Source of the DNA: Blastococcus sp. TF02A-30
Lineage (GTDB): Bacteria > Actinomycetota > Actinomycetes > Mycobacteriales > Geodermatophilaceae
Length of the DNA: 64,000 nucleotides
Direction: 5' to 3'
Assembly: GCF_003319185.1 (NCBI RefSeq)
Contig: NZ_QOHJ01000008.1
Span: 62,001-126,000 of the forward strand
Shown here in pieces: positions 3,836-59,038 of this stretch; position 1 is the first letter of the stretch; each line of letters opens with the position of its first letter. A model generated the notes under the pieces. It ran no database searches, was not told the origin of the DNA, and was given only the letters and a program-made list of their open reading frames with translations. The position numbers were made by a program, and so were the translations under genes.

Positions 3836-3935
3836 GGTGTCCTGTTCGGCATCGGCCGGGCGCAGCTTGAGCCGGTGGACCCGGGCGTCCGGCGATCTTG
3901 ATGCGGGCTGCGGCGGGTGCAGGGAGACTGGAGCC

Positions 3936-5067: not shown

Positions 5068-5253
5068 CCGGCGCCCTCCGAGAGATTCCGGCGCATCGGG
5101 GGCCTCGGCGCTGTCGCCCGTACCATCGGCCATCGAGAATGCAGACGGTGCGGTGCTCGATGCACCGCAACCGGGCGCGTCCGGTTGGCTCGCCACGTCG
5201 ATCATCGTGGCGCCGAACGGGTCGCCACTCCCCGGAGTCTGGAGGATCAAGTC

Positions 5254-5737
5254 ATGCGGCATTGGCACCGACGCGGCGCGGCGTGCCGTGCCATGCTCGT
5301 CTACTCACCCGGCGGTCACCGCAGAGAACTCGAGTTGGCCGTCGAGGATCTCGGCATAGGCGATCTGCTGTGCGCCTCCTTCCGGCCGCTGCAAGCAATC
5401 ACGCTGAAGGGAGCGCCATCCCGGACCAAGGTGGTGGCACTGGTGCATCCACGGCGGCGACTCGGTCACCTTCTGGTCAATGCGGCTCAATCTGCCTACT
5501 GGATCCTGCGGTTCCGCCCGTGCGTGATCGCCACGAGCGGCGCGGACGTGGCAGTTCCGAGCATCGTGCAAGCATCTGTTCCGCAGGGCGACCCTCTTCA
5601 TCGAGAGCGCTGGAACACTGGGGCCCACCCTGGCCGGCCGGCTCTGCCGGCGGTCAGCCGATCTCCTTCTGGCGCAATGGCCAGAACAAGCGCGCGCCCA
5701 TCCGCATGCGGTGCTGCTGTCCGAACCTCTGCTGTGA
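5254..5737 (+). pseudogene. Frameshifted PssD-like glycosyltransferase subunit
   Basis: Starts at an ATG with GGAGGATC upstream (5241-5248) and encodes MRHWHRRGAACRAMLVYSPG, closely similar to the intact pssD at 15978 (MRHWHRSGSPCRMMLVYNPG). After VIATSGADVAVPSIV, near 5570-5600, the frame is lost; the conserved C-terminal part (FIESAGTLGPTLAGRL, LLLAQWPEQ) continues in another frame and ends with a TGA at 5735-5737, just as the intact copy ends. PssD-type proteins need PssE as catalytic partner, and no pssE follows here. A decayed duplicate. Confidence 0.82.
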
Positions 5738-6574: not shown

Positions 6575-6883
6575 GTGCCCAAGCCGTTCCCCAAGGAGTT
6601 CCGGCGGGACGTGATCGCAGTGGCCCGGCAGGGCGACCAGTCGATCGCGCAAGTAGCCCGGAGCTTCGGGGTCTCTGAGTCCTGCCTGCAACGCTGGCTG
6701 AAGATCGCCGACCGCGAGGACGGCCTTGCCACTGAGACGTCCTCGACGGCCGCTTCGAGCGCCGGCGTCGACTTGGAGGCGGAGAACCGCGAGCTGCGCA
6801 AGCGGGCCAAGCAGCTCGAGCAGGAGAACGAAATCCTGCGCCGGGCGACCGCGTACTTCGCCCGCGACGTGCTCCCAAAATGA
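6575..6883 (+). CDS. IS3-family transposase OrfA (helix-turn-helix)
   Basis: 102 residues. The N-terminal half is a Tnp_1-type HTH (SIAQVARSFGVSESCLQRWL), which binds the terminal repeats. The C-terminal half is a leucine-zipper-like coiled coil (ENRELRKRAKQLEQENEILR) used for multimerisation. GTG start at 6575, ten bases after the AAGGA at 6560-6564. The stop at 6881-6883 overlaps the start of orfB (ATGA), and the slippery heptamer at 6874-6880 lies directly before it, so ribosomes can either terminate or shift -1 to make OrfAB. Confidence 0.92.
   Translation: MPKPFPKEFRRDVIAVARQGDQSIAQVARSFGVSESCLQRWLKIADREDGLATETSSTAASSAGVDLEAENRELRKRAKQLEQENEILRRATAYFARDVLPK
6874..6880 (+). promoter_or_regulatory. 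Programmed -1 ribosomal frameshift site (C CCA AAA)
   Basis: The heptamer CCCAAAA is read as C CCA AAA in the orfA frame, immediately before its TGA. It fits the X XXY YYZ slippery rule, and slipping by -1 (CCC AAA) enters the orfB frame at ATG 6880. IS3-family elements generally use this arrangement to produce the OrfAB transposase. Sequence seen directly; function inferred from family behaviour. Confidence 0.75.
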
Positions 6884-7743
6884 TGTACCCGCTGGTCCAA
6901 GACCTCGCCGCCGAGAAGATCCCCGTCGCGGTGACCTGCCGGGTGCTCGGGTTCTCCAAGCAAGCCTTCTTCAAGTGGCGGGCCAATCCGGTCAGCCAGC
7001 GCGACTGGGACGACGCGCACCTGATCAACGCCGCGATCGACATCCACCACGACGACCCGGAGTTCGGCTACCGGTTCATCGCCGACGAGCTCGCCGATCA
7101 GGGCCTGCGGGCCTCGCGCAACCGGGTCAACAGGCTGTGCTCGTCGCAGCGGCTGTGGTCGGTGCACTCGCGCAAGCGCGGCCTGAACCGCAAGCCCGGC
7201 CCGCCGGTGCACGACGACCTGGTCGAGCGCGACTTCACCGCCGAAGCGCCCAACGAGCTGTGGCTTACCGACATCACCGAGCACCCCACCGCCGAGGGCA
7301 AACTCTACCTCTGCGCGATCAAGGACGCCTGCTCCAAGCGGATCGTCGGCTACTCCATCGGCGCCCGGATGACCTCCGACCTGGCGGTCAACGCGCTGGC
7401 CAACGCCCTGGCGCTGCGCGGTGGCGTCGGCACGATCGTGCATTCCGACCGCGGCAGCCAGTTCCGCTCCCACGCCTACGTCCGGACCCTGCGCGACGCC
7501 CAGCTGCGCGGCTCCATGGGCCGGGTCGGTGCCTGCGCAGACAACGCCGCCATGGAGTCGTTCTTCAGCCTGCTGCAGAAGAACGTCCTCAACCGCCAGC
7601 GCTGGGCCACCCGCGAGCAGCTACGCCTAGCGATCGTCGTCTGGATCGAGAAGACCTACCACCGCCGCCGGCGCCAGGACGCCCTCGGCCGCATGACCCC
7701 CATCGAGTTCGAGACACTGACCCAGACCGCTCACGCGGCCTGA
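6880..7743 (+). CDS. IS3-family transposase OrfB (DDE integrase core)
   Basis: 287 residues, normally made as the C-terminal part of OrfAB by -1 frameshifting. It has the N-terminal HTH_21-like region (FGYRFIADEL) and an rve integrase core with Asp131 (LWLTDIT), Asp190 (IVHSDRGSQF) and Glu226 (NAAMESFFSLLQKN). The 35 residues between the second Asp and the Glu give the classical D,D(35)E signature. The reading frame is complete up to the TGA at 7741-7743, seventeen bases before the right inverted repeat. No sign of decay. Confidence 0.93.
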   Translation: MMYPLVQDLAAEKIPVAVTCRVLGFSKQAFFKWRANPVSQRDWDDAHLINAAIDIHHDDPEFGYRFIADELADQGLRASRNRVNRLCSSQRLWSVHSRKRGLNRKPGPPVHDDLVERDFTAEAPNELWLTDITEHPTAEGKLYLCAIKDACSKRIVGYSIGARMTSDLAVNALANALALRGGVGTIVHSDRGSQFRSHAYVRTLRDAQLRGSMGRVGACADNAAMESFFSLLQKNVLNRQRWATREQLRLAIVVWIEKTYHRRRRQDALGRMTPIEFETLTQTAHAA

Positions 7744-9327: not shown

Positions 9328-10818
9328 ATGGACTTCATGTATCGGGATGTTGCGGTGGTTGGCGCCGGAGCCGTGGGGCTCGTCGTCGCTAAACAACTCG
9401 CAGACGCCGGTATGGACGTGGCTCTGGTCGAGGCCGGAACGGCTCATGGGGGTCTGCGGAACCGCGTGATGTCGGGCGTCATCTTCGACAAGGCTCGCCA
9501 CGACGGGGTCTCGAACGGTTGGACGACGGGGCTCGGCGGCACGACCCAGCTGTGGGGCGGGCAACTGTGGGCCTGGGAGGACTACGAGTTCGAGGAGCGC
9601 CCCTACCTCGACGTGCATGCGCCTCGCTGGCCGGTCACGCGCAAGGACCTACAGGAACCGTACGAGACCTTCCTCCGCGTCGTCGGTGCCAGCGCGCGGA
9701 TCAGGCGTGAGCTGCTGTCCACCCCGGTGCTCGAGCCCTCGGACGCAGAAGATTCGGTCTACACGAAGTACTCTGCCTGGCTGCCGTGGCGGAAGCGGAA
9801 CTTCTACCGACATCTGCGGCGAGAGCTGGCCGCCTCGGGGCGCGTGACGGTTCTCGCCGACCGCATCGCGACGCGGATCGAGACCCATGGAGCCGACCGA
9901 GCCATCGTCCTGCTGGAGGGCGCTGGCGCCGACAGGTCCAGTGTCGAGTGCCGCCACGTAGTGCTGGCTGCCGGGACGCTAGGCAACATCGGCCTGCTGC
10001 AGGAATCGCAGGCCTCCGCGTCCCCGTGGCTGGGGCGTGGGTTCATGGACCACGTATCCGGTCGCTACGCGACGCTCACCGTCAAAGACCCGGTCCGCTT
10101 CGTGCGAGCCATGGGCGCGCGGTACTCCGGCACCAGTCTTCTCACCCCTCGCTTCGTCATGCGTCCGGGTTATGCCGAGAAGAACAGGCTGCTCAGCGCC
10201 TTCGCCCACTGGGACGTCGAGCTCCCGAAGGCGAGTTCGTACGCGATCCTGCGCGAAGCGCTGCGCAGTGCTCAGCGCGGAGTTCCTCGCCTGAGCGGTG
10301 TCGATGCCGTGCAACTGTTCCGCCGCGCTCCTCGAGAGCTCGCGTTCGGCGGCTACTGCGCAGCGGTGCTTCGACGTCGCCCCGTACCAGGTAATGCCCT
10401 CGTGCATCTGCAGGTCGAGATGGAGCAACCACCCCGCTTCGACTCGTCCGTCCGGTGGGTTTCGGACGGTGGTGACCGCAGGCTGCACGTGAGCTGGGAC
10501 ATCGGGAAAGAGGAGATGGAAGCCTTCCAGCAGTTCGGGGCCTCGTTCTTGGATTCGTTGGATCTGGATGAGCTCGGTCTCGACCTGGTGGCGCGCCCAG
10601 CGGACCCCGAGTTCCGGGACACCTATCACATGATGGGTGGAACACGCATGGCTGCCCTGGAGGACGAGGGCGTCGTCACGGAGGATCTCACCGTGCACGG
10701 CGCTCCGAACATCCTGGTGACAGGCGCGAGCGTCTTCCCCAGCGGAGGCGTCGCCAATCCCACGATGACGGCGGCCGCCCTTGCCCTCCGGGCGACAGCG
10801 GCGATGAAGGACCGGTGA
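9328..10818 (+). CDS. GMC-type FAD-dependent oxidoreductase
   Basis: 496 residues. A dinucleotide-binding motif VAVVGAGAVGLVVAKQLADAG lies at the N-terminus; WTTGLGGTTQLWGGQ and HVVLAAGTLGNIGLLQ match the FAD-contact regions of GMC/cholesterol-oxidase-like flavoproteins; the C-terminal DTYHMMGGTRM and VFPSGGVANPTMTAAALALR are the hallmark GMC_oxred_C ending with the catalytic His/Asn region. Such enzymes oxidise alcohol groups, including sugar hydroxyls. It is followed after 7 bp by an aldo/keto reductase, suggesting an oxidation-reduction couple acting on one sugar. ATG at 9328 chosen; ATG at 9337 is an alternative. Confidence 0.88.
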   Translation: MDFMYRDVAVVGAGAVGLVVAKQLADAGMDVALVEAGTAHGGLRNRVMSGVIFDKARHDGVSNGWTTGLGGTTQLWGGQLWAWEDYEFEERPYLDVHAPRWPVTRKDLQEPYETFLRVVGASARIRRELLSTPVLEPSDAEDSVYTKYSAWLPWRKRNFYRHLRRELAASGRVTVLADRIATRIETHGADRAIVLLEGAGADRSSVECRHVVLAAGTLGNIGLLQESQASASPWLGRGFMDHVSGRYATLTVKDPVRFVRAMGARYSGTSLLTPRFVMRPGYAEKNRLLSAFAHWDVELPKASSYAILREALRSAQRGVPRLSGVDAVQLFRRAPRELAFGGYCAAVLRRRPVPGNALVHLQVEMEQPPRFDSSVRWVSDGGDRRLHVSWDIGKEEMEAFQQFGASFLDSLDLDELGLDLVARPADPEFRDTYHMMGGTRMAALEDEGVVTEDLTVHGAPNILVTGASVFPSGGVANPTMTAAALALRATAAMKDR

Positions 10819-10825
10819 TGATCGG

Positions 10826-11740
10826 ATGACCGCACTGCCACTCGGTATGGGTGTCGCCACGTTGATGCGCGAACCCTCGGCGAGACAGCGGCGCCGCCTG
10901 CTCGATCACGCCTACGAACTGGGGTACCGCCACTTCGACGTGGCCCCTGTGTACGGCCTCGGAGCCGGGGAGACAGAGCTCGGGAAGTTCGTCGCGGGGC
11001 ACAGCGATGTCGTCGTCACGACGAAGGTCGGACTGGCACCGGGGCGCGGTGCGCGCCTGGTGTCGCACGTCCAAGGTCCACTACGCGCGGCGCTGCGGAC
11101 TTTCCCGGCCCTTCGAGCGGTGGCGAAGAACCGTTCCTCGGCGGCCGCCACCTCCGTGGAGGTGACTGCCGACGCGATGATGTCGAGCGTTCAGCAGAGC
11201 CTCGAGCGGCTGCGCGTGGACGCCATCGACCGCCTCCTCCTGCACGAGGTCCCTGCGACGGACCTGTCCGAGGCCGCCCTGCGGGCTGCGGAGAACCTCG
11301 TGGAGCGTGGTGCGGTACGGCGGTTCGGAGTGTCCGGCCCGCCTGAGGTGATCCGGGCCAGTGACGTGGATAATCACGACCTCGTGACCGTCGTGCAGAC
11401 CTCCGATTCGCTGGCGCCGTCGACCTACTTCAGTCGGCGTGACGTCGCATGGGTGCACTACGGGGTCCTCTCCATGAATTTGCATCGTCTGGCCCCGGTG
11501 CTGGACGACCGGCCACGTCAGGAGTCGCTCGAGCAGCTCCTGGATCGGCCCCTCCGCTCGCTCGAGCACCTGGCGGGTGCACTGGTCCTTCTGTCGGCGG
11601 CGGCTCGCCCGGGGGCCACCGTGCTGGTGGGAACGACCAGTGAGGCACACCTCGCGACCGCGGCGCAGGCCGTGGAGGGCGCCCTCCCGGAGGCGGAGGC
11701 TGTCGCGAGGGCGAGGCGGATCCTGACCGATGGGCGTTGA
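10826..11740 (+). CDS. Aldo/keto reductase family protein
   Basis: 304 residues forming an AKR TIM barrel: HFDVAPVYGLG provides the catalytic Asp and Tyr, TTKVGL the catalytic Lys, and LLLHEV the fourth-position His. Members reduce carbonyls with NADPH. The start is 8 bases after the GMC oxidoreductase stop, so the two are probably co-translated. Taken together, the pair could oxidise and then re-reduce a sugar hydroxyl, giving net epimerisation, in the manner of the unrelated DprE1/DprE2 couple; that is inference from juxtaposition. Part of locus 1 with the Wzz-like gene downstream. Confidence 0.85.
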   Translation: MTALPLGMGVATLMREPSARQRRRLLDHAYELGYRHFDVAPVYGLGAGETELGKFVAGHSDVVVTTKVGLAPGRGARLVSHVQGPLRAALRTFPALRAVAKNRSSAAATSVEVTADAMMSSVQQSLERLRVDAIDRLLLHEVPATDLSEAALRAAENLVERGAVRRFGVSGPPEVIRASDVDNHDLVTVVQTSDSLAPSTYFSRRDVAWVHYGVLSMNLHRLAPVLDDRPRQESLEQLLDRPLRSLEHLAGALVLLSAAARPGATVLVGTTSEAHLATAAQAVEGALPEAEAVARARRILTDGR

Positions 11741-11845: not shown

Positions 11846-12730
11846 GTGACTACAGGCACGTCCCGATCAGCCGATCTGAACGGGAAGCAGTCGGACGACG
11901 TGTCGCCCAGCGACGCTGAGCCCGTCGTGCCTTCGGTGGTCAACGGATCCTGGTCCAGCCGGTCGAGGGCTTGGCGAGGTCGGCTTCCGCTGCTCGCGGC
12001 TGTCGCCGTCCTGCTGATCGTTCCGGCCCTGGTCGGCTATCTGGTAGCGGCGAGCCAGCCGACCGTTTACGGGGCCCGGTCGGAGTTGATCATAGCGGTG
12101 CCGGAGAGTTCCAACACCGCGGAGCAGCAGACAGCCACGCTCGTCAGCATGCTTGACAGCCGAGCGGTCCTCGAGCCGGTGGCGGCCGAGTTCGACGAGG
12201 ACATCCAGGCGCTGCGGGAACGGATCAGCAGAGAGCAGGTCGAGAGCGGAAACGTCATCCGTGTCACCGTCGAGGACTCTGACCGAAATGCGGCGCTGGG
12301 CATGGTCTCGACGTTGACGCAGAACTACGTGGCCTTGGTGACCGGGCTGGCGGCTGACGCCGGCCAGTCCCAGTACCTGACCGATGAGATCGCTCGCCTG
12401 TCGGCGCAACAGGTGGACCTCCGTGGACGGCTGCTGCAGCTGTCCGGGTCGGCGGCGGACGCCGACGTAGAGCTGGCGCGGCAACTGCGGGTGGACAGCG
12501 ATGTCCTCCAGCAGCGGATCGCCGACCTCGAGCAGCAGGCAGTGGAGACGGAAGCGCAGCGGGTGGAAGCCGTCCCCCTCATCCGCCCGCTGGCTGAGCC
12601 CTACCTGCTCGAGGAGGCGGTGGGACCCCAGCCACTTCGCACGGCAGCCGCGGGTCTGCTCGTCGGCATCGTGCTGAGTGCAGGATTGCTCACCGTCGTC
12701 TTGCGCAGGCGGACACTGCATGACGGATGA
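11846..12730 (+). CDS. Wzz/chain-length-determinant-like membrane protein
   Basis: About 294 residues from the GTG at 11846, which follows GAGGGTGGA; a GTG at 11789 would add 19 residues. A cytoplasmic N-terminus is followed by a transmembrane helix (LLAAVAVLLIVPALVGYLVA), a periplasm-type domain with coiled-coil-forming heptads around residues 150-230 of the product (QSQYLTDEIARLSAQQVDLR and onward), and a second helix near the C-terminus (AAAGLLVGIVLSAGLLTVVL). No kinase domain. PCP/Wzz proteins set polymer length. It overlaps the flippase start by 11 bp. Confidence 0.78.
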   Translation: MTTGTSRSADLNGKQSDDVSPSDAEPVVPSVVNGSWSSRSRAWRGRLPLLAAVAVLLIVPALVGYLVAASQPTVYGARSELIIAVPESSNTAEQQTATLVSMLDSRAVLEPVAAEFDEDIQALRERISREQVESGNVIRVTVEDSDRNAALGMVSTLTQNYVALVTGLAADAGQSQYLTDEIARLSAQQVDLRGRLLQLSGSAADADVELARQLRVDSDVLQQRIADLEQQAVETEAQRVEAVPLIRPLAEPYLLEEAVGPQPLRTAAAGLLVGIVLSAGLLTVVLRRRTLHDG

Positions 12731-14420
12731 GTCCCGCAACCGAGCGGCACCACCCGGTGTCGCGCCGACCGAGCCGCTCCCGGCCTCACTCGCGCCGGAG
12801 GGCGGCGACCCTCCGGTCAGTGAGCCCATCCGGAACAGCGTCACGGTCGCGGTCTGGACTCTTCTCAGCCGGCTGACGGGGCTGCTCAAGGTCGCCGTCA
12901 TCGCGGCGGTCCTCGGCCCCACGTACATGGGCAACCTGTTCCAGGCGACGAACCTGCTGCCGAACATCACCTTCGAGCTCCTGACCGGAGCGTTGTTCAC
13001 GTCGCTTCTCGTGCCCGCGCTGATCAAGCATGCCGATCTCGGTGACCGCCGGTCGGTCGAACGCCTGGCCGGTGGCTTTCTCGGGCTCGTTCTGCTCGCA
13101 TTCCTCGTCGTATCCGTCGTCGTGGCGCTGGCTGCCCCCTGGATCATGCAGATGCTGGCCGTGGGTATCCCCGACGAGGCGGTCGTGGAGGCCCAGACCA
13201 GTGCTGGCTCGCTGCTCCTGTGGTTGCTGATCCCGCAGGTGATGCTCTACGGCGTCATCGGTTGTGCCTCAGCGGTCCAGAACGCGTACGGGCGCTTCGC
13301 CTTCACCGCAGCAGCCCCCGCTGTCGAGAACGTCGCGATCATCGGAATCCTCGTGGGCTACGGGGTGACGTTCACTGACGGAACGGACCTCGCAACGGTC
13401 GAGACGCGCCAGATCCTCTGGCTGGGGATCGGGACGACGTCGGCCGTGGCCCTGCACGCGGCCGCACAGTGGTGGGGGGCATGGAGGGCCGGCGCCGTAC
13501 TTCTGCCGACGGTCCGCTGGCGCGATCCCGAGGTGCGTCACCTCCTGAGGCTGGCCATCCCGTCACTCGGCAATGCCGGGATGACCGCATCCCGGACACT
13601 CGGCGTGCTCGTTGTGGCATCCAGCATTCCGGGTGGTGTCGTGGCCTTCCAGCTGGGCTACAACTTCTACACCCTGCCCGAGGCCCTCGTCGCCAGGCCA
13701 TTGGCGCAGGGCATGTTGCCGGATCTCGCCCGCGCTCATCGCAGAGGCGACCGGCGCGCATTCTTCGAGCATCTCCGGAACGCGGGCCGGCTCGCGCTCT
13801 TCGTGGCGGTCCCGGCGGTCGTGGCCTACCTCGTGCTCGCCGAGCCCATGGCACGGGCCGTGGCCGGCGGCAACATGGCAACCGACGAGGGCATCGCCCT
13901 GCTCAGCGGTGCCATCACCGGGTTGGCTCTGGGGGCGCTCGCGCAGTGCGGAGTGCTGTTGTGCACGAACGCCTACTACGCGCGCCGGGACGCCCGCACG
14001 CCGTTCGTCGTCACAGCCATCAGGTCGTTGCTGGCGCTTGCCTGGATGGCGTACTACTTCACAGCAGCGGAGGGCATCTCGCTCCTGACGCTCGGTCTGA
14101 TCATCACCGTGAGCGACGCGCTCGCCCTGCTGATCCTGCTCGTGATGCTCGGCTTCGAGCGTCCAGGAGGCGGACTTGACCTGCCGATCAGCGCGGGCAG
14201 GGCGGTAGCCGCGTCGGCGGTCATGGCGGTCGTCGCGGTGGGCATCGTCCGACTGGTGGAGGGCTGGGCCTCTGACTCGATCGCTCTGCTGGCGGCAGCC
14301 CTGGTCGGTCTGCTGACCTATGTCGGCGCCCAATGGATCACGCGCTCGCCGGACCTCGAATTGTTCCGCAGCCATGTCGGCCGGCGCCCTGTCCCCGAGA
14401 TCGGTAAATCCGCGCCATGA
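12720..14420 (+). CDS. MurJ/Wzx-type lipid-linked oligosaccharide flippase
   Basis: 566 residues with about 14 hydrophobic helices. The opening VAVWTLLSRLTGLLKVAVIAA followed by NITFELLTGALFTSLLVP closely resembles the MVF/MurJ superfamily signature (MOP flippases), which move undecaprenyl-PP-linked glycans across the membrane. In a polysaccharide cluster with Wzz- and polymerase-like genes it is more likely the export flippase for this polymer than the essential lipid II flippase. ATG at 12720 is chosen because it overlaps the upstream gene; the 4-base ATGA overlap at its end couples it to the polymerase gene. Confidence 0.87.
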   Translation: MTDESRNRAAPPGVAPTEPLPASLAPEGGDPPVSEPIRNSVTVAVWTLLSRLTGLLKVAVIAAVLGPTYMGNLFQATNLLPNITFELLTGALFTSLLVPALIKHADLGDRRSVERLAGGFLGLVLLAFLVVSVVVALAAPWIMQMLAVGIPDEAVVEAQTSAGSLLLWLLIPQVMLYGVIGCASAVQNAYGRFAFTAAAPAVENVAIIGILVGYGVTFTDGTDLATVETRQILWLGIGTTSAVALHAAAQWWGAWRAGAVLLPTVRWRDPEVRHLLRLAIPSLGNAGMTASRTLGVLVVASSIPGGVVAFQLGYNFYTLPEALVARPLAQGMLPDLARAHRRGDRRAFFEHLRNAGRLALFVAVPAVVAYLVLAEPMARAVAGGNMATDEGIALLSGAITGLALGALAQCGVLLCTNAYYARRDARTPFVVTAIRSLLALAWMAYYFTAAEGISLLTLGLIITVSDALALLILLVMLGFERPGGGLDLPISAGRAVAASAVMAVVAVGIVRLVEGWASDSIALLAAALVGLLTYVGAQWITRSPDLELFRSHVGRRPVPEIGKSAP

Positions 14421-15937
14421 CAGCACTCGGGACCAGACCCGGTCCGCAGGCCCCGGCACGTTTCCGCCCGGTCATGCCGGTGCACTGGTGGCTCGTCGTC
14501 CTCGCCGCAGCGGCCTGCGGCGGAGCGGCAGTCGCGATCTCTCCGCTCATGGCCGGCGCCGCCACAGGGGCAGCGGCCGTGGTGGTCCTCGTGATCCACC
14601 GCCCGGAGTGGGCCGGCTACATCTATCTCGGACTCACGCCGCTCATCGTCGGTTTACAGCGAGGCATGCTCATCCCGGTCATCCGCCTGAACGAAGCCCT
14701 GCTCGGCCTGCTGTGCCTCGCCGTGGTCCTCGGATCGGTGCGGCGGTGGGCGCTGGCGGGGTTCCCCCGCCTCGACGTCCGAGTCGTGGACCTGGCAGTC
14801 CTGGGGCTGGCCCTCTTCAGCTCGGTCACCAGCCTGCTCTGGATGTACGCACGGGCCGTCGACATCACCGCTGATGACATCCTCTTCGCACTCACGTTGT
14901 GGAAGTACGGCGCGCTCTACCTCCTGTTCCGGATCACCATCCGGTCCGAAGCGCAGGTGCGCCGGGCGATCCTCGTCGCCCTCCTGGCGTGCGTCCCTGT
15001 CGCGGTCCTCGGAGTTCTCCAGGCGGTGGGCGTGGGCCCTGTGCTCGCGTTCCTCGTTCCCTTCGCCACGGACGAGGGCCCGGCGGCGCTGGCGAACAAT
15101 CGTGCGTCCTCGACGATCGGCGCCCCGATCCCGTTCGGTGACGTCATGGTCATGGTGTTCGCCCTCGCGCTCGGCTGGCTGACGCATGTACGGGCCCACC
15201 GTCTCCCGATGGCGGCGATCGCTGCCCTGTTCGGCATCAGTGCGGTCGCGTCCGGACAGGTGTCTAGTTGGCTGGGTCTCCTCGTCGCGGGACTGGTCAT
15301 CGGGTGGGCGATGGGCCGCTTGCGCCATGCCGTCGCAGGTATCGCGGTCCTGGGGGCGGCATCGGCGATCGCGCTCCAGCCCGTCATCTCCGCCCGGGTG
15401 CCAACCGGTGGAGGGGTTCCGACCGCATGGACCGGCGAGGATGGCCGGATCGGGAATCTCTCGGAGTTCATCTGGCCGCGGATCGGCGAGGGGGTCAACT
15501 GGCTCTTCGGCGTCCGCACCTCGGCTCGCATCCCCGCTCCGGAAGTCTGGCGTGAGTGGGTGTGGATCGAGAGTGGCTACACGTGGCTGATGTGGAACGG
15601 GGGGCTGCCACTGACCGCGGCCTTCGTCGTGTTCGCCGTGTCGGCGCTGAAGGTCGCTCAACGCGTCGTGAGGGACGGCACTCCAGCATTCCGGGCTGTG
15701 GGTCTGGCCGCGCTGGGTGTCCTGGCGATGGAGGTGGTCCTGATGGTCGTGGATCCCCACCTCACGATGCGGGGTGCCGCCGACCTGCTGTTCCCGATGA
15801 TCGCGCTGTGCGTCAACTGGCATCTCGGGTTCTCGCGCACGGCGACGTCGGCCGCAGGCTCCGGCGCGCCACCCCCGTTCCCTGGTCCAGGCGTCGGTGG
15901 ATCGGTGAACGCGGCGGGAGCGCAGTCACGTGCGTAA
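14417..15937 (+). CDS. Wzy/O-antigen ligase-like polytopic membrane protein
   Basis: 506 residues, about 10-12 predicted transmembrane helices with a large extracytoplasmic loop around residues 325-385 (from PVISARVPTGG to WIESGYTWLMWNGG). This topology and the gene neighbourhood (flippase upstream, Wzz nearby) fit an O-antigen polymerase/ligase of the Wzy_C type, which joins undecaprenyl-linked repeats. The C-terminal tail is Gly/Pro/Ala-rich. No catalytic motif can be named with certainty, so polymerase versus ligase is open. Confidence 0.75.
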   Translation: MTALGTRPGPQAPARFRPVMPVHWWLVVLAAAACGGAAVAISPLMAGAATGAAAVVVLVIHRPEWAGYIYLGLTPLIVGLQRGMLIPVIRLNEALLGLLCLAVVLGSVRRWALAGFPRLDVRVVDLAVLGLALFSSVTSLLWMYARAVDITADDILFALTLWKYGALYLLFRITIRSEAQVRRAILVALLACVPVAVLGVLQAVGVGPVLAFLVPFATDEGPAALANNRASSTIGAPIPFGDVMVMVFALALGWLTHVRAHRLPMAAIAALFGISAVASGQVSSWLGLLVAGLVIGWAMGRLRHAVAGIAVLGAASAIALQPVISARVPTGGGVPTAWTGEDGRIGNLSEFIWPRIGEGVNWLFGVRTSARIPAPEVWREWVWIESGYTWLMWNGGLPLTAAFVVFAVSALKVAQRVVRDGTPAFRAVGLAALGVLAMEVVLMVVDPHLTMRGAADLLFPMIALCVNWHLGFSRTATSAAGSGAPPPFPGPGVGGSVNAAGAQSRA

Positions 15938-15977
15938 CGGGTGACCGGCAGTGCCGGCGAGGAAGAGGAGCCAACTG

Positions 15978-16466
15978 ATGAGGCACTGGCACAGATCCGG
16001 CTCGCCGTGCCGGATGATGCTCGTCTACAACCCCGGCGGACACCGGCGGGAACTGGAAGTAGCGATCAAAGACCTGAGCCCAGAAGTGGTCCTGTGCGCG
16101 ACTTTCCCTCCGCTGCAGGGGATTTCTTTCGCGCGGGTGCCGCAGTCCGAGAGGACGGTCGCGGTGATGCACCCACGAAGGCGGGCCGGGCGCCTGATGG
16201 TCAATGCGTTCCAGTCCCTCGTCCACATCTTGCGCTTCCGGCCCTGCGTCATCATCACCAGTGGGGCGGATGCCGCGGTGGCCAGCATGGTCATCGGCAG
16301 AACCGTCTTCCGACGCCGGACGGTCTTCATCGAGAGCGCCGGAACTCTCGGCCCCACCCTTGCCGGACGGCTGTGCCATCGTTTCGCCGATCTCATGCTG
16401 GTGCAGTGGCCCGAGCAGTCGCAGATCTACCCGCGCTCCGTCCGATTGGAGGCACCGCTGCTGTGA
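15978..16466 (+). CDS. pssD: PssD-like (Alg14-type) glycosyltransferase membrane subunit
   Basis: 162 residues; ATG at 15978 with GAGGAG seven bases upstream. Shows the PssD/Alg14 signatures: MLVYNPGGHRRELE, CVIITSGADAAVASMV, FIESAGTLGPTLAGRL and LMLVQWPEQ. In this two-subunit enzyme PssD/Alg14 is the membrane anchor and acceptor-side half, while PssE/Alg13 carries the nucleotide-sugar site; the pair typically adds the second sugar (often glucuronic acid) to a lipid-linked glucose. The GTGA overlap with pssE supports a tight 1:1 complex. A frameshifted paralogue lies at 5254-5737. Confidence 0.88.
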   Translation: MRHWHRSGSPCRMMLVYNPGGHRRELEVAIKDLSPEVVLCATFPPLQGISFARVPQSERTVAVMHPRRRAGRLMVNAFQSLVHILRFRPCVIITSGADAAVASMVIGRTVFRRRTVFIESAGTLGPTLAGRLCHRFADLMLVQWPEQSQIYPRSVRLEAPLL

Positions 16467-16972
16467 ATCTCTGCCTCGTGGTGGGCACCACTCCTTACGG
16501 GTGGGACGACCTCGTCCGTGCCGTCGATGATGCCGCCCAGACGCATGGGCTGACCGGCTGGGCGCAGATCGGTAACGGGTCCTACGAGCCCAGCGCTCTG
16601 TCCCATGATCGGTTTCTGCCGCACGCGGCCATCCTGGAGCGGATGAAGTCGGCGGATGTCGCCGTGATCCACGGCGGACTCGGCAGCATCGGGGACGGCT
16701 TGCGCCACGCGCAGCGGCTGGTGGTCGCTCCTCGCTCGCTCGGAGTCGGCCGGCACGGGCGGCAGGAAGCGCCCAACGATCAGTGGCCCGTGGCGCTCCG
16801 CCTCGCCGAGATGTACGGCTTCGCATGCGTCTCTTTGACAGAGCTCGGTCCCGCCATCGCATCCCAGCTCGAGGCGCCGCCCCAACGATGGACCGTGGCG
16901 CCGACCAACGCGCCGCGGATCATCGAGGAGTGGCTGGAGTCCGAAGGCGTTCGCGTCCGCGAGCAACGTTGA
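16463..16972 (+). CDS. pssE: PssE-like (Alg13-type) glycosyltransferase catalytic subunit
   Basis: 169 residues of the Glyco_tran_28_C kind. N-terminal LCLVVGTTPYGWDDLVRAVD, central VAVIHGGLGSIGDGL (nucleotide-sugar-binding glycine loop) and PRSLGVGRHGRQEAPNDQ (UDP-sugar contacts) match PssE. It works with the PssD encoded immediately upstream (GTG start at 16463 overlapping the pssD stop). UDP-glucuronate supplied by the ugd genes in this window would be a natural donor, as in rhizobial exopolysaccharide synthesis; the donor is inferred. Confidence 0.88.
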   Translation: MNLCLVVGTTPYGWDDLVRAVDDAAQTHGLTGWAQIGNGSYEPSALSHDRFLPHAAILERMKSADVAVIHGGLGSIGDGLRHAQRLVVAPRSLGVGRHGRQEAPNDQWPVALRLAEMYGFACVSLTELGPAIASQLEAPPQRWTVAPTNAPRIIEEWLESEGVRVREQR

Positions 16973-17060: not shown

Positions 17061-17657
17061 GTGACCCGACGGCCTCCGCTGCGAGACCTCTATGCAACCG
17101 ATTTCGCGGCAGCCTGTGCGGAGATGGCCGAGGCCGTAGCGCAATTTGAGCCGGATCTCGTCGTCGGCATCGAGACCGGTGGGGCCCGTGTAGCGGAGGC
17201 CATGGTCGATGGATTGGGTTCGCCGCAACTCGTGGGAGTCCGTGTCCAGCGCCCTGCCACCAAGCTGAAGTCTCGGATGTCCCTCGGCCGCCTTTTCAGC
17301 AGATTGCCGCGCGGTGTGGTGGACCTTCTTCGTTGGGCCGAGGTCGAGATGCGTGAGGCAACGCTGCGCAGCCAGGGTTCGTCGGTGGAGTCGGGGGCCC
17401 GCGCGTTGCTCGCAACGTCCGCATTGCAGGATGCCGCCACCGGGGCCCGGCGCGTTCTCATCGTCGACGACACCATCGATTCCGGTCGCACGCTATCCGT
17501 CGTCAAGCGCGCGGTAGAGCTGGCCGAACCGGCGGCGGAGATCCGGACCGCGGTTCTCGCCTCTACATGGCGGCGACCGCCCGTTCAGCCGGATTACTGC
17601 CTCTACGGTCGCTGCCTACTCCGCATGCCTTGGAGCTTCGATGCTGAGCGGCCCTGA
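17061..17657 (+). CDS. Type I phosphoribosyltransferase, probable polysaccharide ribosylation enzyme
   Basis: 198 residues. It has the PRPP-binding loop RVLIVDDTIDSGRTLS and an N-terminal pyrophosphate loop VVGIETGGARVAEAMV, the two hallmarks of type I PRTases (ComF/purine-salvage fold). The protein is not close to hypoxanthine, orotate or adenine PRTases by any motif I can see. The downstream HAD phosphatase gene overlaps it by 17 bp, and both sit in a polysaccharide locus. A PRPP-dependent transferase followed by a HAD phosphatase is the two-step route now known to install ribofuranose in some Gram-negative O antigens and capsules, so I infer transfer of 5-phosphoribosyl to the glycan. Confidence 0.8.
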   Translation: MTRRPPLRDLYATDFAAACAEMAEAVAQFEPDLVVGIETGGARVAEAMVDGLGSPQLVGVRVQRPATKLKSRMSLGRLFSRLPRGVVDLLRWAEVEMREATLRSQGSSVESGARALLATSALQDAATGARRVLIVDDTIDSGRTLSVVKRAVELAEPAAEIRTAVLASTWRRPPVQPDYCLYGRCLLRMPWSFDAERP

Positions 17658-18240
17658 GGTTCCGGTGCTCGCGTGCGATCTGGACGAGACTCTGCTGCGC
17701 GTCAACACCTTCCCCGCGTTCGTGCGTTTCGCTCTCCGGCAGTCGCTCGTCGAGCGGGACGTTGTGGCGTGGACGACGCTCGTCTCCGCCGTCATCAAGC
17801 GAAAGTTGCTGCGTGGTTCGCACGTGGCATTCAAGGCCACCGTTCATGGCGTCGGCCGTCGCCTGGCGCTCACCGCCGTCGCGGAATGGGCGGACGGCAT
17901 GGTGCAGTCGCACCTCAATGCCGACGTGCACCGCCTGGTGAGGAGCTGGCGGGGCGATACCGTGCTGGTCACTGCGGCACCGAGCATCTATGCCGATCTG
18001 ATCGGCGCCCAGGTTGGATTCACCCTGGTGCAGGCCAGCGATCACCGTGCCGGGGAGTACGTGGAGAACGTGCATGCCCGAAAGGCGGATTGCCTGAAGC
18101 AGGTGCTGACCGGGCCGCTGCAGTGTGCGATCACCGACGATCCCCGGTTGGACGGTCCGCTGCTGGCATTGGCCGTCGAGCCTCTGATCGTGGACGAGGC
18201 TGGAGCGGTGAATCCCTACGTCGGTCCGGTGCGGGCGTAG
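17641..18240 (+). CDS. HAD-superfamily phosphatase paired with the phosphoribosyltransferase
   Basis: 199 residues. Motif I LACDLDETLL (nucleophile Asp and acid/base Asp), motif II VLVTAAPS, the motif III Lys in ARKADCLKQ and motif IV CAITDDPRLDGPLL are all present, so catalysis should be intact. The helical cap between motifs I and II (about residues 20-100) is of the C1/phosphoserine-phosphatase kind. It overlaps the phosphoribosyltransferase gene by 17 bp and is probably co-translated; I infer that it removes the 5-phosphate from a newly added ribofuranose. It could instead act on a soluble metabolite. Confidence 0.82.
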   Translation: MLSGPEVPVLACDLDETLLRVNTFPAFVRFALRQSLVERDVVAWTTLVSAVIKRKLLRGSHVAFKATVHGVGRRLALTAVAEWADGMVQSHLNADVHRLVRSWRGDTVLVTAAPSIYADLIGAQVGFTLVQASDHRAGEYVENVHARKADCLKQVLTGPLQCAITDDPRLDGPLLALAVEPLIVDEAGAVNPYVGPVRA

Positions 18241-18464: not shown

Positions 18465-19967
18465 ATGTTCGGGATAGACCTGGTCAGCAGCCGTACTTCA
18501 CGTGCTGAGCCGTCGGTGCGCTCGTCCGAGAGCGAGGCGCATGGGGAGGGGGCGGGCACACACCGCGGTTGGCGGAAGGCCTACGTCAAGAGTCTCATGG
18601 TGGCCGACATCCTCTGTGCGGTCGTAGCCGGCTTGGCGGCCTACCTCATCCGCTTCGGAGCGAATGCTGGAACCCCGGTCAGGACCTCCCTCCTGCCCGT
18701 TCTCCTGCTCCCTTTGGTGTGGGGTGCGGCCATGCTCGTCAGTCGCGCCTACGAGCAGCGGTACCTCTGGTTGGGCCCCGAGGAGTTCCGGCGTGTCTTC
18801 AACGCCGCGGCGATGTTGCTCGCTGCGTTGGGAACCATCTCGTGGGCGTTCAAGCTCGAGTTGGCCCGTGGTTTTGTCGTGGTCGCCGTTCCGCTCGCGG
18901 CGTTGCTCACCCTGCTCCAGCGCTATGGGCAGCGGCGATTGCTGCATGCAGGGCGTCGGCGTGGCAATTTCCAGCAGACGATGATGATCGTGGGACACCG
19001 AAGCGCCGTCGCCGCGCTCCGGGAGCAGATCGATCGAGAAGCGCATCACGGCTATCGGGTCGTTGGCTGCTGCTTGCCGGATGGCCATGCCCTGGACAAC
19101 GCGGAGGCGTTCGATGGCATCCCGGTGCTCGGATCCCTCGACGATGTGGCTGCCATGGTTCGCGAGCACCAGGTCGACGCTGTGGCTGTGATGCCATGTC
19201 CCGAGTTGGACGGGCCCACGCTTCGGCGGCTCGGTTGGGACCTCGAGAAAACGCGTGCGGAGTTGCTTCTTGCCCCCGCTGTGACGGATGTCGTCGGCTC
19301 ACGGGTCAGCATCCGTCCAGTGTGCGGCCTGCCCTTGCTGCACATGGAGCGGCCGGAATTGACCGGTGTACGCCGGCTGACGAAGGAACTCTTCGATCGT
19401 TCGGCTGCATTCGCGGGAATTCTCCTGCTGATGCCCGTTCTCCTCGGCTTGGCCGTCGCGGTCAAGAGCACCAGCCGAGGCCCGGTGCTTTACAAGCAGG
19501 AGCGTGTCGGGCGCGACGGCCGGACGTTCTCGATGCTGAAGTTCCGCAGCATGGTGGTCGACGCCGATCGCATGGTCGGCTCTCTGGTCGCCGAGAGCGA
19601 GGGGAACGAAGTCCTCTTCAAGATGAAAGCCGACCCGCGCGTCACGCGTGTCGGCAAGGTTCTCCGGCGCTACTCACTCGATGAACTTCCCCAGCTGATC
19701 AACGTGCTGCGCGGCGAGATGTCGCTCGTGGGGCCGCGGCCGCCGTTGCCTACGGAGGTCGAACGCTATGGGTTCGACATGCACCGGCGTTTCCTGGTGA
19801 AGCCGGGGCTCACCGGCCTGTGGCAGGTGAGCGGGCGGTCGGACCTGTCCTGGGACGACTCCGTGCGCATCGACGTCCGCTACGTCGAGAACTGGTCCCT
19901 GACCTTCGATTTCATGATCCTGTGGAAGACGCTGGGGGCTGTGCTCCGAGGCTCGGGTGCCTACTGA
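18465..19967 (+). CDS. Polyprenyl glycosylphosphotransferase (WbaP/CpsE type)
   Basis: 500 residues; ATG after GGGAGGGTAGGG. This integral membrane enzyme starts repeat-unit synthesis by moving a sugar-1-phosphate from a UDP-sugar to undecaprenyl phosphate. Four transmembrane helices lie at about residues 45-63, 78-92, 113-127 and 135-152, then a CoA-binding-like Rossmann domain, a membrane re-entrant helix (AAFAGILLLMPVLLGLAVAV) and the catalytic PGT domain: KSTSRGPVLYKQERVGR, SMLKFRSM, and RRYSLDELPQL with the Asp406-Glu407 dyad, then SLVGPRPPLP. Complete and apparently active; it begins locus-1 synthesis, probably with glucose or galactose. Confidence 0.92.
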   Translation: MFGIDLVSSRTSRAEPSVRSSESEAHGEGAGTHRGWRKAYVKSLMVADILCAVVAGLAAYLIRFGANAGTPVRTSLLPVLLLPLVWGAAMLVSRAYEQRYLWLGPEEFRRVFNAAAMLLAALGTISWAFKLELARGFVVVAVPLAALLTLLQRYGQRRLLHAGRRRGNFQQTMMIVGHRSAVAALREQIDREAHHGYRVVGCCLPDGHALDNAEAFDGIPVLGSLDDVAAMVREHQVDAVAVMPCPELDGPTLRRLGWDLEKTRAELLLAPAVTDVVGSRVSIRPVCGLPLLHMERPELTGVRRLTKELFDRSAAFAGILLLMPVLLGLAVAVKSTSRGPVLYKQERVGRDGRTFSMLKFRSMVVDADRMVGSLVAESEGNEVLFKMKADPRVTRVGKVLRRYSLDELPQLINVLRGEMSLVGPRPPLPTEVERYGFDMHRRFLVKPGLTGLWQVSGRSDLSWDDSVRIDVRYVENWSLTFDFMILWKTLGAVLRGSGAY

Positions 19968-19984
19968 CGGCACCATGCCTGCCG

Positions 19985-20580
19985 ATGGCAAGTCCTGAGC
20001 CGACGTCGTCGGCGTTCACCCTCCTGTGCGTCTGCACGGGCAGCATCTGCCCCTCTGCCTTCGCCGAGCGCCTGACCCGGGCCGTCCTGCAGGAGCTGAT
20101 GGGGAAGCGGGCGGCGACGGTTCGCGTCGCGAGTGCCGGCTGCCGCGCGGTGGTGAACGCGCCGATGCACGAGGACACCGCGGTGGTGCTCAAGGGCTAC
20201 GGCGCCGAGGCCGGCGACTTCCGTGCCCGTCCGCTCGACGAGCCGATCGCCGGCAGCACCGACCTGATGCTCACCATGACCCGCGCCCACCGCCGGCAGG
20301 TGCTCGAGCGCCCTCTCCGGGCTCTGCAGCGCACCTTCACCCTGCGGAGGCGGCCGACCTGCTGGCGTCCGTCCCCGAGCGGCCACCGGGCCCGGGCGCC
20401 GAGAACATGCGCCGGCTGGTCGCCGACCTGGCCGCCGCTCGGTCGCAACGGCAAGGCGGTGTGGACGACGACATCCGCGACCCCATCGGCGAGCCGTTGG
20501 AGGTGCACGAGGAGGTCGGCGAGCTGATCACGACGTCGCTGATCCCCCTGCTCCAGCGGCTCGCCGCGACCGTGAGCTGA
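19985..20580 (+). pseudogene. Tyrosine phosphatase paralogue: frameshifted and catalytically altered
   Basis: Paralogue of the phosphatase at 3936-4598. The catalytic loop reads CVCTGSICPS instead of CTGNICRS, so the essential Arg of C-x5-R is Pro. Around 20345 the sequence ACCCTGCGGAGG lacks one G relative to the intact copy (ACCCTGCGGGAGG), moving the rest (LASVPERPPG, DDDIRDPIGEPLEVHEEV) into another frame up to TGA 20578-20580. Two independent lesions indicate a genuine pseudogene rather than a single sequencing error. Confidence 0.85.
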
Positions 20581-20587
20581 GGTCCGC

Positions 20588-21705
20588 TCAGCGAGGGACG
20601 TCGGGAAGCGCCTGGTCGCCGAACTGCTCGGCGTTCTGCGTCAGCGAGTCGTTGCGCAGGTACTCCCACATCCGCTCGCCGGCGGTCGCGTCCAGGTAGA
20701 CGACGCTGGACGCACCCTCCCGGCCGGTGCCGAGCACGGGGGCCGGGAAGTACTCCACCTCGCTCGGCCGCACGTTGCGCATCGAGACGGCCAGCCCGAG
20801 CAGATCGGTGTTGCTCAGGGAGTCGTCCACCGTGACCGCGTCCGTGACGGCCCGCAGCGTCGAGTCCAGCCGGCCGGGGTTGCTGAAGGTGTTCGAGCTG
20901 AACAGTTTGCCGAACATCGCCTTGAGATACTGCTGCTGCCGCTTGACCCGGTCGAAGTCACCGCCCGGCAAGTCGTATCGCTGGCCGAAGTACCAGCGGG
21001 CCTGCTCGCCGTTCAGATGGTTGATGCCGGCCTTGGAGGTGTACGGCCCGTTCTGCGTGGTCTCGGCGACGACGACGTCGACGCCGCCCAGGTCATCGGT
21101 CATCTGGATCAAACCGTCGAAGTCGATGGCCATGTAGTGGTCGATGCGCACCTGGGTGAGCTGCTCGACAGTCTGGATGAGCAGCGTCGGCCCGCCGAAG
21201 GCGTAGGCAGCATTGATCTTGTTCATGCCGTGGCCGGGGATGTCGACCCACGAGTCGCGGGGGATCGAGATCAGCTGCGCGTGCTGCCGGTCGCCGGTGA
21301 ACCGGGCGATCATGATCGCGTCCGACCGTCCGCCCCGGTCTTCTCCTTCTCCGGCAGCGACGCGAGTGTCCGAGCCGACGAGCAGAAAGGTCACCGGGTC
21401 GTTGCGGCGGCCTGGGCAGGCGTGGTCGGGACGGGCCGGACGTCCTCGTCCAGCCCGTCGAAGACGTCGGCGACCCGGTCGACGTTGCCGACGTAGCGCT
21501 CGGTCAGGTACCAGAGCCCGCCACCGACGGCGAGGGCCAGCACGAGGGTGAGCACGCCGAGACCGGCGAGGACCCGGCGCAGCCGTCGCCGGTTGTCGCG
21601 CGGTGTCTCGTCGTCCGAGAAGGGGGAACCCTCGTCATCGGCGAGGAGCGGGCGGTAGCCCTCGGTGCCCTGCTGCGTGCCTGCGCGCTCGTCGGTGTTC
21701 ACCAC
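20588..21705 (-). pseudogene. LCP-family gene split by a one-base frameshift
   Basis: The 5' part (GTG at 21705 to TGA at 21391) encodes 104 residues: an acidic N-terminus and one transmembrane helix (VLAGLGVLTLVLALAVGGGL). The catalytic LCP domain continues in another frame from about 21394 (VTFLLVGSDTR, SDAIMIARF, SIPRDSWVDIPGHGMNK) to 20588. The intact paralogue at 2133 reads straight through the matching point. The downstream frame has its own GTG overlapping the upstream stop (GTGA), so reinitiation could still yield an unanchored catalytic domain, but loss of function is likelier. Convergent with the dead phosphatase gene, 7 bp away. Confidence 0.8.
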
Positions 21706-21968: not shown

Positions 21969-22186
21969 GATCCCTTCCTACGGGTCGTGTCGTGATCCTC
22001 AGTGATCCGACGCGGGCAGAAAGTGACGAACTCGTCCGGGCGCTCTGACATGCCGGATGTGCCGCAGAGTGGCGCTACAGAAACCGGTCCGCTACATCGC
22101 ACGCCGGAGGAGGCTTCCGGAGGCGCGACCACGCTGTGCGTGATCCACTTCGAGGGCGAAGTGGTGCCGAGTGCCCGGAGGGTGAC

Positions 22187-23506
22187 ATGCGGATCTCCGT
22201 CATCGGCTGCGGCTACCTCGGAGCCGTGCACGCGGCCTCGCTGGTGGAGCTGGGGCACGAGGTCGTCGGCATCGACGTCGACGACCGGAAGGTCCGGGCC
22301 CTGTGCGACGGCCGGGCGCCCTTCTACGAGCCCGACTTCCAGGAGCTGCTCGCGCAGAGCCTGATTTCGGGCCGGCTGACCTTCAGCACCGATGTGGCCG
22401 ACGCTGCAGGTGCGCGGGTCCACTTCGTCTGCGTGGGAACCCCGCAGAAGCACGGCGAGTACGCCGCGGATCTCCGCTTCGTCCAGGCGGCCGCCGAGTC
22501 GCTGCTCGAGGTCGTCGAGCCCGGCGACCTCGTCGTGGGGAAGTCGACCGTCCCGGTGGGAACGGCGGCCGGGCTGTCGCAGATGTTCGGGGAGAAGGTC
22601 CCGGGCACGCTCGTCGCCTGGAACCCCGAGTTCCTCCGCGAAGGATTCGCGGTGCGCGACACCCTCTACCCCGACCGTCTCGTCTACGGCGTCCCCGACG
22701 GTGCGGACGGAGAGCGGATCACCGGGGTCCTCGATGAGGTCTACGCCCGGATCGTCGGACGCGGAGTGCCGAAGGTGGTCACCGACTACGCCACGGCCGA
22801 GATGGTCAAGACGGCCGCCAACTCCTTCCTCGCCACGAAGATCTCCTTCATCAACGCGATGGCCGAGCTGTGCGAGGCGACGGGCGCGGACGTGAAGCAG
22901 CTCGCCGACGCGATCGGCTACGACGATCGCATTGGCCGGAAGTTCCTCAACGCCGGGCTCGGCTTCGGCGGCGGCTGCCTACCCAAGGACATCCGCGCAT
23001 TCATGGCGCGGGCCGGGGAGCTGGGGGCTGACCAGGCGCTGACGTTCCTGCGCGAGGTGGACAACATCAACATGCGCCGCCGGATCCGGATGGTGGAGCT
23101 GGCCCGGGAGGTCTGCGACGGGTCGCTGCTGGGCAAGCGGGTCGCCGTCCTGGGGGCGGCGTTCAAGCCCGATAGCGACGACATCCGCGACTCCCCGGCG
23201 CTCAACGTCGCCGCGCAGCTGCAGCTGCAGGGCGCCGTCGTCCGCGTCACCGACCCGGCGGCGATCGAGAACAGCCGCCGCGAGTGGCCGCACCTCGACT
23301 TCGCCGAGACTCCCGAAGAAGCCGCCGAGCGGGCCGACGCCGTTCTGGTGCTCACCGAGTGGAAGCAGTACCGGGCGCTCGACCCGGTCGAGTTCGGCAA
23401 ACACGTCGCCCAGAAGCGGGTGCTCGACGGCCGCAACGCGCTCTCGCGCACCGCGTGGACCGAGGCAGGCTGGACCTACCGGGCCCTGGGCCGCCGCGCC
23501 GGCTGA
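22187..23506 (+). CDS. ugd: UDP-glucose 6-dehydrogenase, copy B
   Basis: 439 residues, oxidising UDP-glucose to UDP-glucuronate with two NAD+. ATG at 22187 with GGAGGG upstream. N-terminal NAD-binding RISVIGCGYLGAVHA; central helix with Lys208 (TAEMVKTAANSFLATK); the catalytic Cys264 in GFGGGCLPKDI; and the C-terminal UDP-binding part LGAAFKPDSDDIRDSP. Same length as, and highly similar to, copy C at 57718; a deleted copy A remains at 4594-5067, with which it shares even its leader sequence. A broken ydcF-type gene follows at 23961, mirroring the ugd-ydcF pair at 57718-59635. Provides UDP-glucuronate for locus 1, possibly through PssDE. Confidence 0.95.
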   Translation: MRISVIGCGYLGAVHAASLVELGHEVVGIDVDDRKVRALCDGRAPFYEPDFQELLAQSLISGRLTFSTDVADAAGARVHFVCVGTPQKHGEYAADLRFVQAAAESLLEVVEPGDLVVGKSTVPVGTAAGLSQMFGEKVPGTLVAWNPEFLREGFAVRDTLYPDRLVYGVPDGADGERITGVLDEVYARIVGRGVPKVVTDYATAEMVKTAANSFLATKISFINAMAELCEATGADVKQLADAIGYDDRIGRKFLNAGLGFGGGCLPKDIRAFMARAGELGADQALTFLREVDNINMRRRIRMVELAREVCDGSLLGKRVAVLGAAFKPDSDDIRDSPALNVAAQLQLQGAVVRVTDPAAIENSRREWPHLDFAETPEEAAERADAVLVLTEWKQYRALDPVEFGKHVAQKRVLDGRNALSRTAWTEAGWTYRALGRRAG

Positions 23507-23515
23507 GCAGGGAGC

Positions 23516-59037: not shown

Positions 59038-59038
59038 G

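Follow-up and report, generated by a model that had tools for sequence, protein, structure and literature searches.

Glycan-bound ribofuranose can be made from PRPP: as excerpts of three papers (PMC11127046, PMC11231755, PMC10299916) describe the route, ribofuranose 5-phosphate is transferred onto the glycan and a HAD phosphatase then strips the phosphate to leave beta-ribofuranose. The gPRT-PRP systems, represented by ORF5/ORF7 of Klebsiella O4/O7, Thermobacillus composti, and CriT/CrpP of Haemophilus type b Bcs3, share with the gene pair described here a polysaccharide context and the combination of a transferase with a HAD phosphatase, and the PRPP donor is common to both, although for our pair it is only expected. 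The pair differs from them in that its transferase (hereafter PRT) belongs to another lineage, a small PRTase of type I with some 180-220 aa, in that PRT and its phosphatase partner (hereafter HAD) are usually encoded by separate overlapping genes with PRT first, and in that the DD motif, which an excerpt of PMC10299916 describes as split over two loops in CriT (D680/E818), is contiguous in PRT (D136 D137). Polyprenyl-phosphoribose donors occur in other systems, and the substrate of DprE1/2 is a lipid-linked donor, according to passages of PMC11127046. A three-component pentofuranose system (a UbiA-type PPPRS with a PRP domain, a MATE flippase and GT136) and the mycobacterial DPPR synthase likewise lead from PRPP to a pentofuranose with a phosphatase step, but PRT has no UbiA domain, giving only PF00156 and a sub-threshold PF15609 at E<=1, and its predicted fold is that of a PRTase. 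By description only, the pair may also be likened to BtrL/BtrP of butirosin/ribostamycin, which we take to O-ribosylate a sugar from PRPP and then to remove the phosphate; their product is presumably an antibiotic, in contrast to the polysaccharide context of PRT and HAD. In the literature searched at title and abstract level, which extended to papers other than the 2022 founding gPRT paper (10.1038/s41589-022-01006-6), the compact PRT-HAD module is unnamed.

The window analysed here is a stretch of 64,000 nucleotides from Blastococcus sp. TF02A-30 (NZ_QOHJ01000008.1, positions 62,001 to 126,000), and the pair and its neighbours are listed in Table 1. The first-pass annotation of this DNA had recognised a type I PRTase with PRPP and pyrophosphate loops next to a HAD phosphatase with four motifs, and both assignments are confirmed. 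PRT scores 53.6 bits against PF00156 (cut-off 26.3), which places it in the type I phosphoribosyltransferase superfamily, and its pyrophosphate loop (G36-I-E-T-G40-G41) and its PRPP loop (VLIVDDTIDSGRTL), with the vicinal acidic pair, can be read directly in a protein of predicted PRTase core fold. HAD scores 32.7 bits against PF12710 (cut-off 27) and carries all four motifs in the alignment (D13xD15xT17, T111, K148 and D166/D171), as expected for subfamily IB, its score against TIGR01490 being 28.4 bits, under the cut-off of 98.3. With 55 PRT and 26 HAD matches in the protein database (E<=0.001, those of the window itself included), both similarities are far beyond chance. The database entry of the window PRT (P0001) has 177 aa and thus a later start than the ORF in Table 1, and the alignment of relatives such as P0003 begins at residue 1 of the longer reading. 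The two genes had been called fused; they do overlap, but as separate genes, and the overlap is such that they would be translationally coupled.

Table 1. The PRT-HAD pair and neighbouring polysaccharide genes in the window
Feature	Position	Strand	Remarks
MurJ-family flippase, candidate repeat-unit flippase	12678..14420	+	PF03023 6.2e-50
Polymerase candidate, 506 aa, by position only	14417..15937	+	No Pfam/NCBIfam match at E<=1
PssD-like (Alg14-type) glycosyltransferase subunit	15951..16466	+	PF08660 31.1 bits (cut-off 27); PssD NF041549 1e-16, below cut-off
PssE-like glycosyltransferase subunit (start inferred)	16463..16972	+	NF041548 3.5e-14, below cut-off
PRT, compact type I phosphoribosyltransferase, 198 aa	17061..17657	+	GTG start; candidate PRPP:glycan 5-phosphoribosyltransferase
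PRT/HAD gene overlap, 17 bp	17641..17657	+	Direct sequence reading; 67/74 relatives' ORF pairs overlap
HAD, HAD-IB-type phosphatase, 199 aa	17641..18240	+	ATG start; candidate 5-phosphoribosyl phosphatase
Polyprenyl-phosphate sugar-1-phosphate transferase (initiating PGT)	18465..19967	+	PF02397 2.2e-69; TIGR03025 430 bits (cut-off 295.6)
UDP-glucose dehydrogenase	22136-23506		Named from its sequence

The pair was said to lie in a cluster with PGT, PssDE, flippase and polymerase-like genes, and this holds for the PGT, the flippase and PssDE-like genes (the latter with NCBIfam scores below cut-off), whereas the polymerase role is assigned by position alone, since its product matches no family model. 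That product has matches in 13 of the 112 genomes of the window's family, its own included, and another protein of the cluster resembles Wzz very weakly (E 0.16). Parts of the cluster seem to recur in broken form at 2261-5688, where stretches are similar in DNA to the LCP-like region 20616-21559 (71%) and to the phosphatase region 20030-20559 (69%), together with fragments of UGD (88-94%) and a PssD-like stretch that is split (67%); an IS3-type transposase, named from sequence, lies nearby at 6880-7743, and no second PRT or HAD match was found within the window. A further UDP-glucose dehydrogenase-like stretch at 57719-59038 is 81.5% identical in DNA to 22188-23507, and the low-molecular-weight phosphatase-like reading at 19820-20580 seems frame-shifted midway (ORFs 19820-20527 and 20026-20580), which appears to be a sequencing error or decay.

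In sequence and in predicted fold, PRT is a purine-salvage-type PRTase. In structure comparisons covering 50 entries each, those for the PRT model are type I PRTases, the nearest being purine PRTases; no gPRT or PRP chain is among the entries for PRT or for HAD, to which no weight is given. A search of PDB sequences with PRT profile A6 (E<=10) returned PRTases, a PRPP synthetase and a hypothetical protein among the best 60 of 104 matches, which reach down to E 0.034; no gPRT or CriT chain is among these 60, from a library that may lack gPRT entries, and no PRP chain is among all 20 matches of the HAD profile. Within this scope, a sequence relation of PRT to the known glycan PRTs (gPRT/CriT) was not detected. 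With the archaeal purine PRTases 1vdm and 4z1o PRT shares the fold, both loops and a C-terminal PW, its C-terminal motif aligning with KWIVFPW of 1vdm and with the counterparts in 4z1o and 7kl6, but it differs from them in having Leu for the aligned Trp, the conserved T169, R188 and D194, and a HAD partner. Several relatives are named 'hypoxanthine phosphoribosyltransferase' in their source databases, and no name pointing to glycans was found among the best 120 of 151 proteins (E<=1e-15) in a wide-alignment protein-database search whose scoring was confined to the 7995 candidates with most words in common. In a quick tree that includes six purine-PRTase-like rows as outgroup, a branch with a support of 99 sets the PRT family apart; the tree serves only for this separation, as it carries a long-branch warning where outgroup and family join and 18 of its 83 inner branches are starred. 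Identity with a UbiA-type synthase was set aside, given the lack of a UbiA match and the PRTase-fold model, and so was identity with ComF, no ComF model being among the 20 NCBIfam families that match PRT at E<=1. The first-pass annotation had staked its reading on PRT not resembling salvage enzymes far more than glycan PRTs; in sequence and predicted fold it does so, and it is evidence from the family that upholds the proposed function.

That evidence begins with the residues. In the alignment with 79 relatives of the collection, D136, D137, D140, S141 and G142 of the PRPP loop are present in 79/79, as are R64, P83, R91, T169, W191 and D194 outside it, and R188 is present in 78. The Trp of 1vdm, 4z1o and 7kl6, the three closest aligned salvage structures, which stands before the C-terminal PW and which we assume stacks on the purine, aligns with L186 of PRT, a position held by Leu in 73 rows, Ile in 4, Met in 2 and an aromatic residue in none. 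The Lys after the last core strand of salvage PRTases, presumably the base-recognition residue, has its place taken by T169 in all 79 rows, with a register uncertain by one residue, and Lys occurs at 168, 170 and 171 in 0, 1 and 8 of the 79. Between the pyrophosphate and PRPP loops PRT is about 40 residues longer than 1vdm (1vdm 46-82, profile 49-126), and this longer, family-specific stretch (residues about 61-128), helical in the model, holds the further invariants R64, P83 and R91. Therefore, despite its kinship with purine PRTases, PRT does not look like a salvage enzyme and probably is not one either, and the loss of Trp together with the newly conserved Arg, Asp and Thr would fit a sugar acceptor.

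Pairing of PRT with HAD was then assessed across phyla. When genome contigs were scanned with an alignment of PRT, 110 relatives were confirmed, and the analysis went on with the best 80 of the loci; these are mostly from Bacteroidota and Pseudomonadota, and also from Actinomycetota, Bacillota, Spirochaetota and Verrucomicrobiota, many of the records being MAGs whose organism names may be wrong. With profile A2, built solely from relatives of the window's HAD (E<1e-3), a HAD gene was found near PRT at 74 of the 80 loci. With each ORF taken automatically from its first start codon, the two overlap or lie at most 6 bp apart in 72 of the 74 pairs, the remaining two having gaps of 136 and 903 bp, and the order is PRT-HAD on the same strand in 69, HAD-PRT in three, with one opposite-strand match and one natural PRT-HAD fusion (L064), the sole one among the 74. 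Among the six loci without a HAD at this threshold, L027 and L060 have a weak adjacent match, L047 and L054 lie near a contig edge, and L052 and L063 have no partner detectable with profile A2. As in the gPRT-PRP systems, the partner has its catalytic Asp, D13 and D15 being present in 74/74 rows together with K148, D166 and D171, and T17 is present in 73, with Ser in one row. The pair is spread over several phyla and is not specific to the kind of actinomycete for which the first-pass annotation had remarked on it.

The tie of the pair to glycans is strong where seen, but not universal. An iterated GT2 profile gave 40 matches in the 2 kb directly upstream of PRT (26.6 per 100 kb) and 0-3.3 per 100 kb in each of nine other 2-kb bins, and a same-strand GT2 gene lies within 2.5 kb of PRT at 42 of the 80 loci. 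The seeds of this profile were genes lying upstream of six PRTs, which biases it towards the upstream bin; a control profile was therefore made from four GT2 proteins of other positions (E<=1e-5), and it gave the same picture, with 37 matches at 36 loci in the upstream bin and 0-4 in every other bin. Since 26 of the 44 upstream genes of 230-420 aa fall in one homologous cluster, the GT2 signal reflects in part common descent of a GT2-PRT-HAD operon; contexts outside that cluster occur at L012, L016, L020/L079, L073 and L078 and, with PssDE, in actinobacteria. PGT genes lie near the pair at L016, L040 and L075, and a pyruvyltransferase-like gene follows it in four alphaproteobacterial loci (L029 and L031 by Pfam, L044 and L062 by phmmer with L029/L031 seeds). 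In a Pfam tally of 164 neighbouring genes (86 + 78), covering the best 25 of 117 and 25 of 101 families, most others occurring once, GT2 (PF00535) was counted in 8 and 11, GT1 (PF00534) in 2 and 4, and PGT (PF02397) in 2 and 2. With a small marker set, a glycan marker was found within 4 kb at 51 of the 80 loci and none at 29, of which some are at contig ends and some next to housekeeping genes such as Thy1 (L050) or Hsp33 (L069). A GidA-family gene adjoins the pair at L017, and the upstream neighbour at L052 is an LD-carboxypeptidase. At L011, L013, L024, L030, L039 and other Bacteroidota loci, GT2-PRT-HAD groups often stand without a further marker nearby, and such stand-alone groups may act on a conserved envelope glycan. 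No annotated named plasmid context was found, the one plasmid record matched having no annotated gene beneath the match. An order-wide search around Moritella, with at most eight candidates scored per genome, found PRT in 3 of 394 genomes, Moritella's own included, and tied no enterobacterial O antigen of known structure to the pair; among the loci examined, none is linked to a polysaccharide of known ribofuranose content.

Within the window's own family, Geodermatophilaceae, PRT was found in 4 of 112 genomes (E<=1e-20, first-look candidates being partly scored), an accessory distribution of the kind expected for a variable polysaccharide gene. The pair lies in the window, in L096 (the L009 contig), in L097 (the L010 contig, Modestobacter sp. 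VKM Ac-2977) and in L098, and in all four a PssDE/WelK-type glycosyltransferase adjoins PRT. It is bipartite in the window and in L096, and fused and divergently transcribed in L097 and L098, where the fused proteins (342 or 326 aa) match WelK (4e-47 and 1e-46, below cut-off) as well as PssD and PssE; with the orientation altered in this way, simple sharing of one segment becomes a less likely explanation. In addition, L097 carries a GT2 gene and a MOP-type flippase. The record of L009/L096, SPQJ01000035.1, is titled 'UNVERIFIED_ORG: Bacillus sp. AZ43', a label that looks wrong, as a genome search leads to the window's own family (G029).

Other readings of the pair have to be weighed against this evidence. 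It is rather unlikely that PRT and HAD make another phosphoribosylated product, either a polyprenyl-phosphate ribose donor or a small nucleoside-like metabolite finished by the phosphatase, which the glycan neighbours use or accompany. The stand-alone GT2-PRT-HAD groups and the pairs beside housekeeping genes speak for it, as do the polyprenyl-phosphoribose donors known elsewhere (excerpt of PMC11127046); however, the known polyprenyl-phosphoribosyl synthases are UbiA membrane proteins, which PRT neither matches nor resembles in its model, and no metabolite gene recurs among the neighbours named singly or among the best 25 of 117 and 25 of 101 families tallied. The weak likeness of PRT to PF15609 PRTase_2 (E 0.012, below cut-off), which we take to be a family of tellurite-associated clusters, also points towards another product. 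Less probable still is a nucleobase-salvage PRTase that came into the cluster by chance with a 5'-nucleotidase-like HAD. The sequence and fold neighbours of PRT (HGPRT, XPRT and purine PRTases) and the database names of its relatives agree with such a role, but the NCBIfam salvage models stay far under their cut-off (best 28 bits against 140), the aligned Trp and Lys are replaced, the HAD pairing and the glycosyltransferase neighbours would be left aside, and a gene so sparse in the family coexists in the window's genome with a separate HGPRT, ten PF00156 matches being found there, of which four were scanned, with HGPRT at 214 bits (cut-off 150) and PyrR at 280 (cut-off 230).

The first-pass annotation had further suggested, more speculatively, that the GMC oxidoreductase and aldo/keto reductase (AKR) genes at 9328-11740 could epimerise the pentose by a logic like that of DprE1/DprE2 in arabinose formation. 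We find it very improbable that ribose is turned into arabinofuranose in this manner and do not retain the proposal, which has no support beyond adjacency in two loci. These genes share the cluster with the pair in the window and in L096, but neither was found in L097 or L098, about 10 kb either side of the pair (tblastn, E<=1e-5, 20-kb loci), and because these two of the four loci carry the pair alone, the two gene sets are separable. At E<=1e-60, GMC matches occur in 3 of the 112 family genomes, namely the window's, G029, which has the pair, and G100 (37% identity), in which no PRT match was found. The GMC fold presumably differs from the DprE1-type flavin fold, and two ALO-domain matches occur elsewhere in the window's genome. 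A DPPR synthase was not recognised in that genome, where one of the three UbiA proteins is a heme O synthase, another a MenA and the third has no family name. DprE1/2 act on a lipid-linked donor (excerpt of PMC11127046), which the PRT-HAD route would not make. It is hardly probable at all that PRT and HAD are divergent members of the gPRT-PRP family already known: the same two chemical steps are expected and both have a HAD phosphatase, but no gPRT, CriT or PRP chain appeared among the PDB-sequence matches given above, and the contiguous DD of PRT contrasts with the split motif described for CriT.

We consider it somewhat more probable than not, by analogy with the known systems, that PRT and HAD form a two-step ribofuranosyltransferase for a glycan, which transfers ribofuranose 5-phosphate and then removes the phosphate. 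This reading is upheld by the HAD pairing across phyla, the glycosyltransferase neighbours, the sparse accessory distribution and the replacement of Trp; the PRPP-dependent transfer and dephosphorylation first proposed is therefore the best-supported reading, on different grounds, with the family evidence carrying the claim. The data show the genes, their pairing, the predicted fold, the residue pattern and the neighbourhood, and from these we infer the substrate, order, linkage and product of the route. With PRPP-Mg bound, PRT would place the 5-phosphoribosyl group on a hydroxyl of a sugar in the repeat unit while this is lipid-linked and faces the cytoplasm. The candidate general base, which could activate the acceptor hydroxyl, is D140 of the PRPP loop, a conserved acidic residue whose equivalent in HGPRT we take to be the base. 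The helical stretch (about 61-128) with R64, P83 and R91, together with R188, W191 and D194, may shape a site for the acceptor and not for a nucleobase. The coupled HAD would then remove the 5-phosphate to give ribofuranose, the linkage being presumably beta by analogy with the inverting known enzymes. The acceptor, or else the next sugar, is likely to be the residue added by the adjacent PssDE in the window and by GT2 in Bacteroidota and other groups, and the resemblance of PssDE/WelK to GlcA-transferases and the UDP-glucose dehydrogenase of Table 1 suggest a uronic acid near the PRT acceptor.

The pair probably descends from purine-recycling enzymes, and it is best read as a third, compact, independently evolved PRPP-dependent path to ribofuranose. 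Broader still, and with about an even chance of being right, we postulate a widespread, uncharacterised glycosyltransferase family of small type I PRTases that arose out of purine salvage and gained a helical stretch for acceptor binding as well as a HAD partner coupled to them, which would ribofuranosylate envelope glycans of Bacteroidota, Pseudomonadota, Actinomycetota and other phyla and whose origin would be independent of gPRT/CriT and of the UbiA-type synthases. Should this hold, bacteria would have evolved enzymes for glycan ribofuranose at least three separate times, in one case directly from those of nucleotide salvage. Present annotation misses the pair, under names such as 'hypoxanthine phosphoribosyltransferase'. 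With about 200 residues each, PRT and HAD would be simple to express and assay and of use in glycan synthesis, and the pair would, if the reading is true, be a sequence marker from which ribose in a glycan could be predicted for environmental bacteria and for many gut Bacteroidota that are uncultured.
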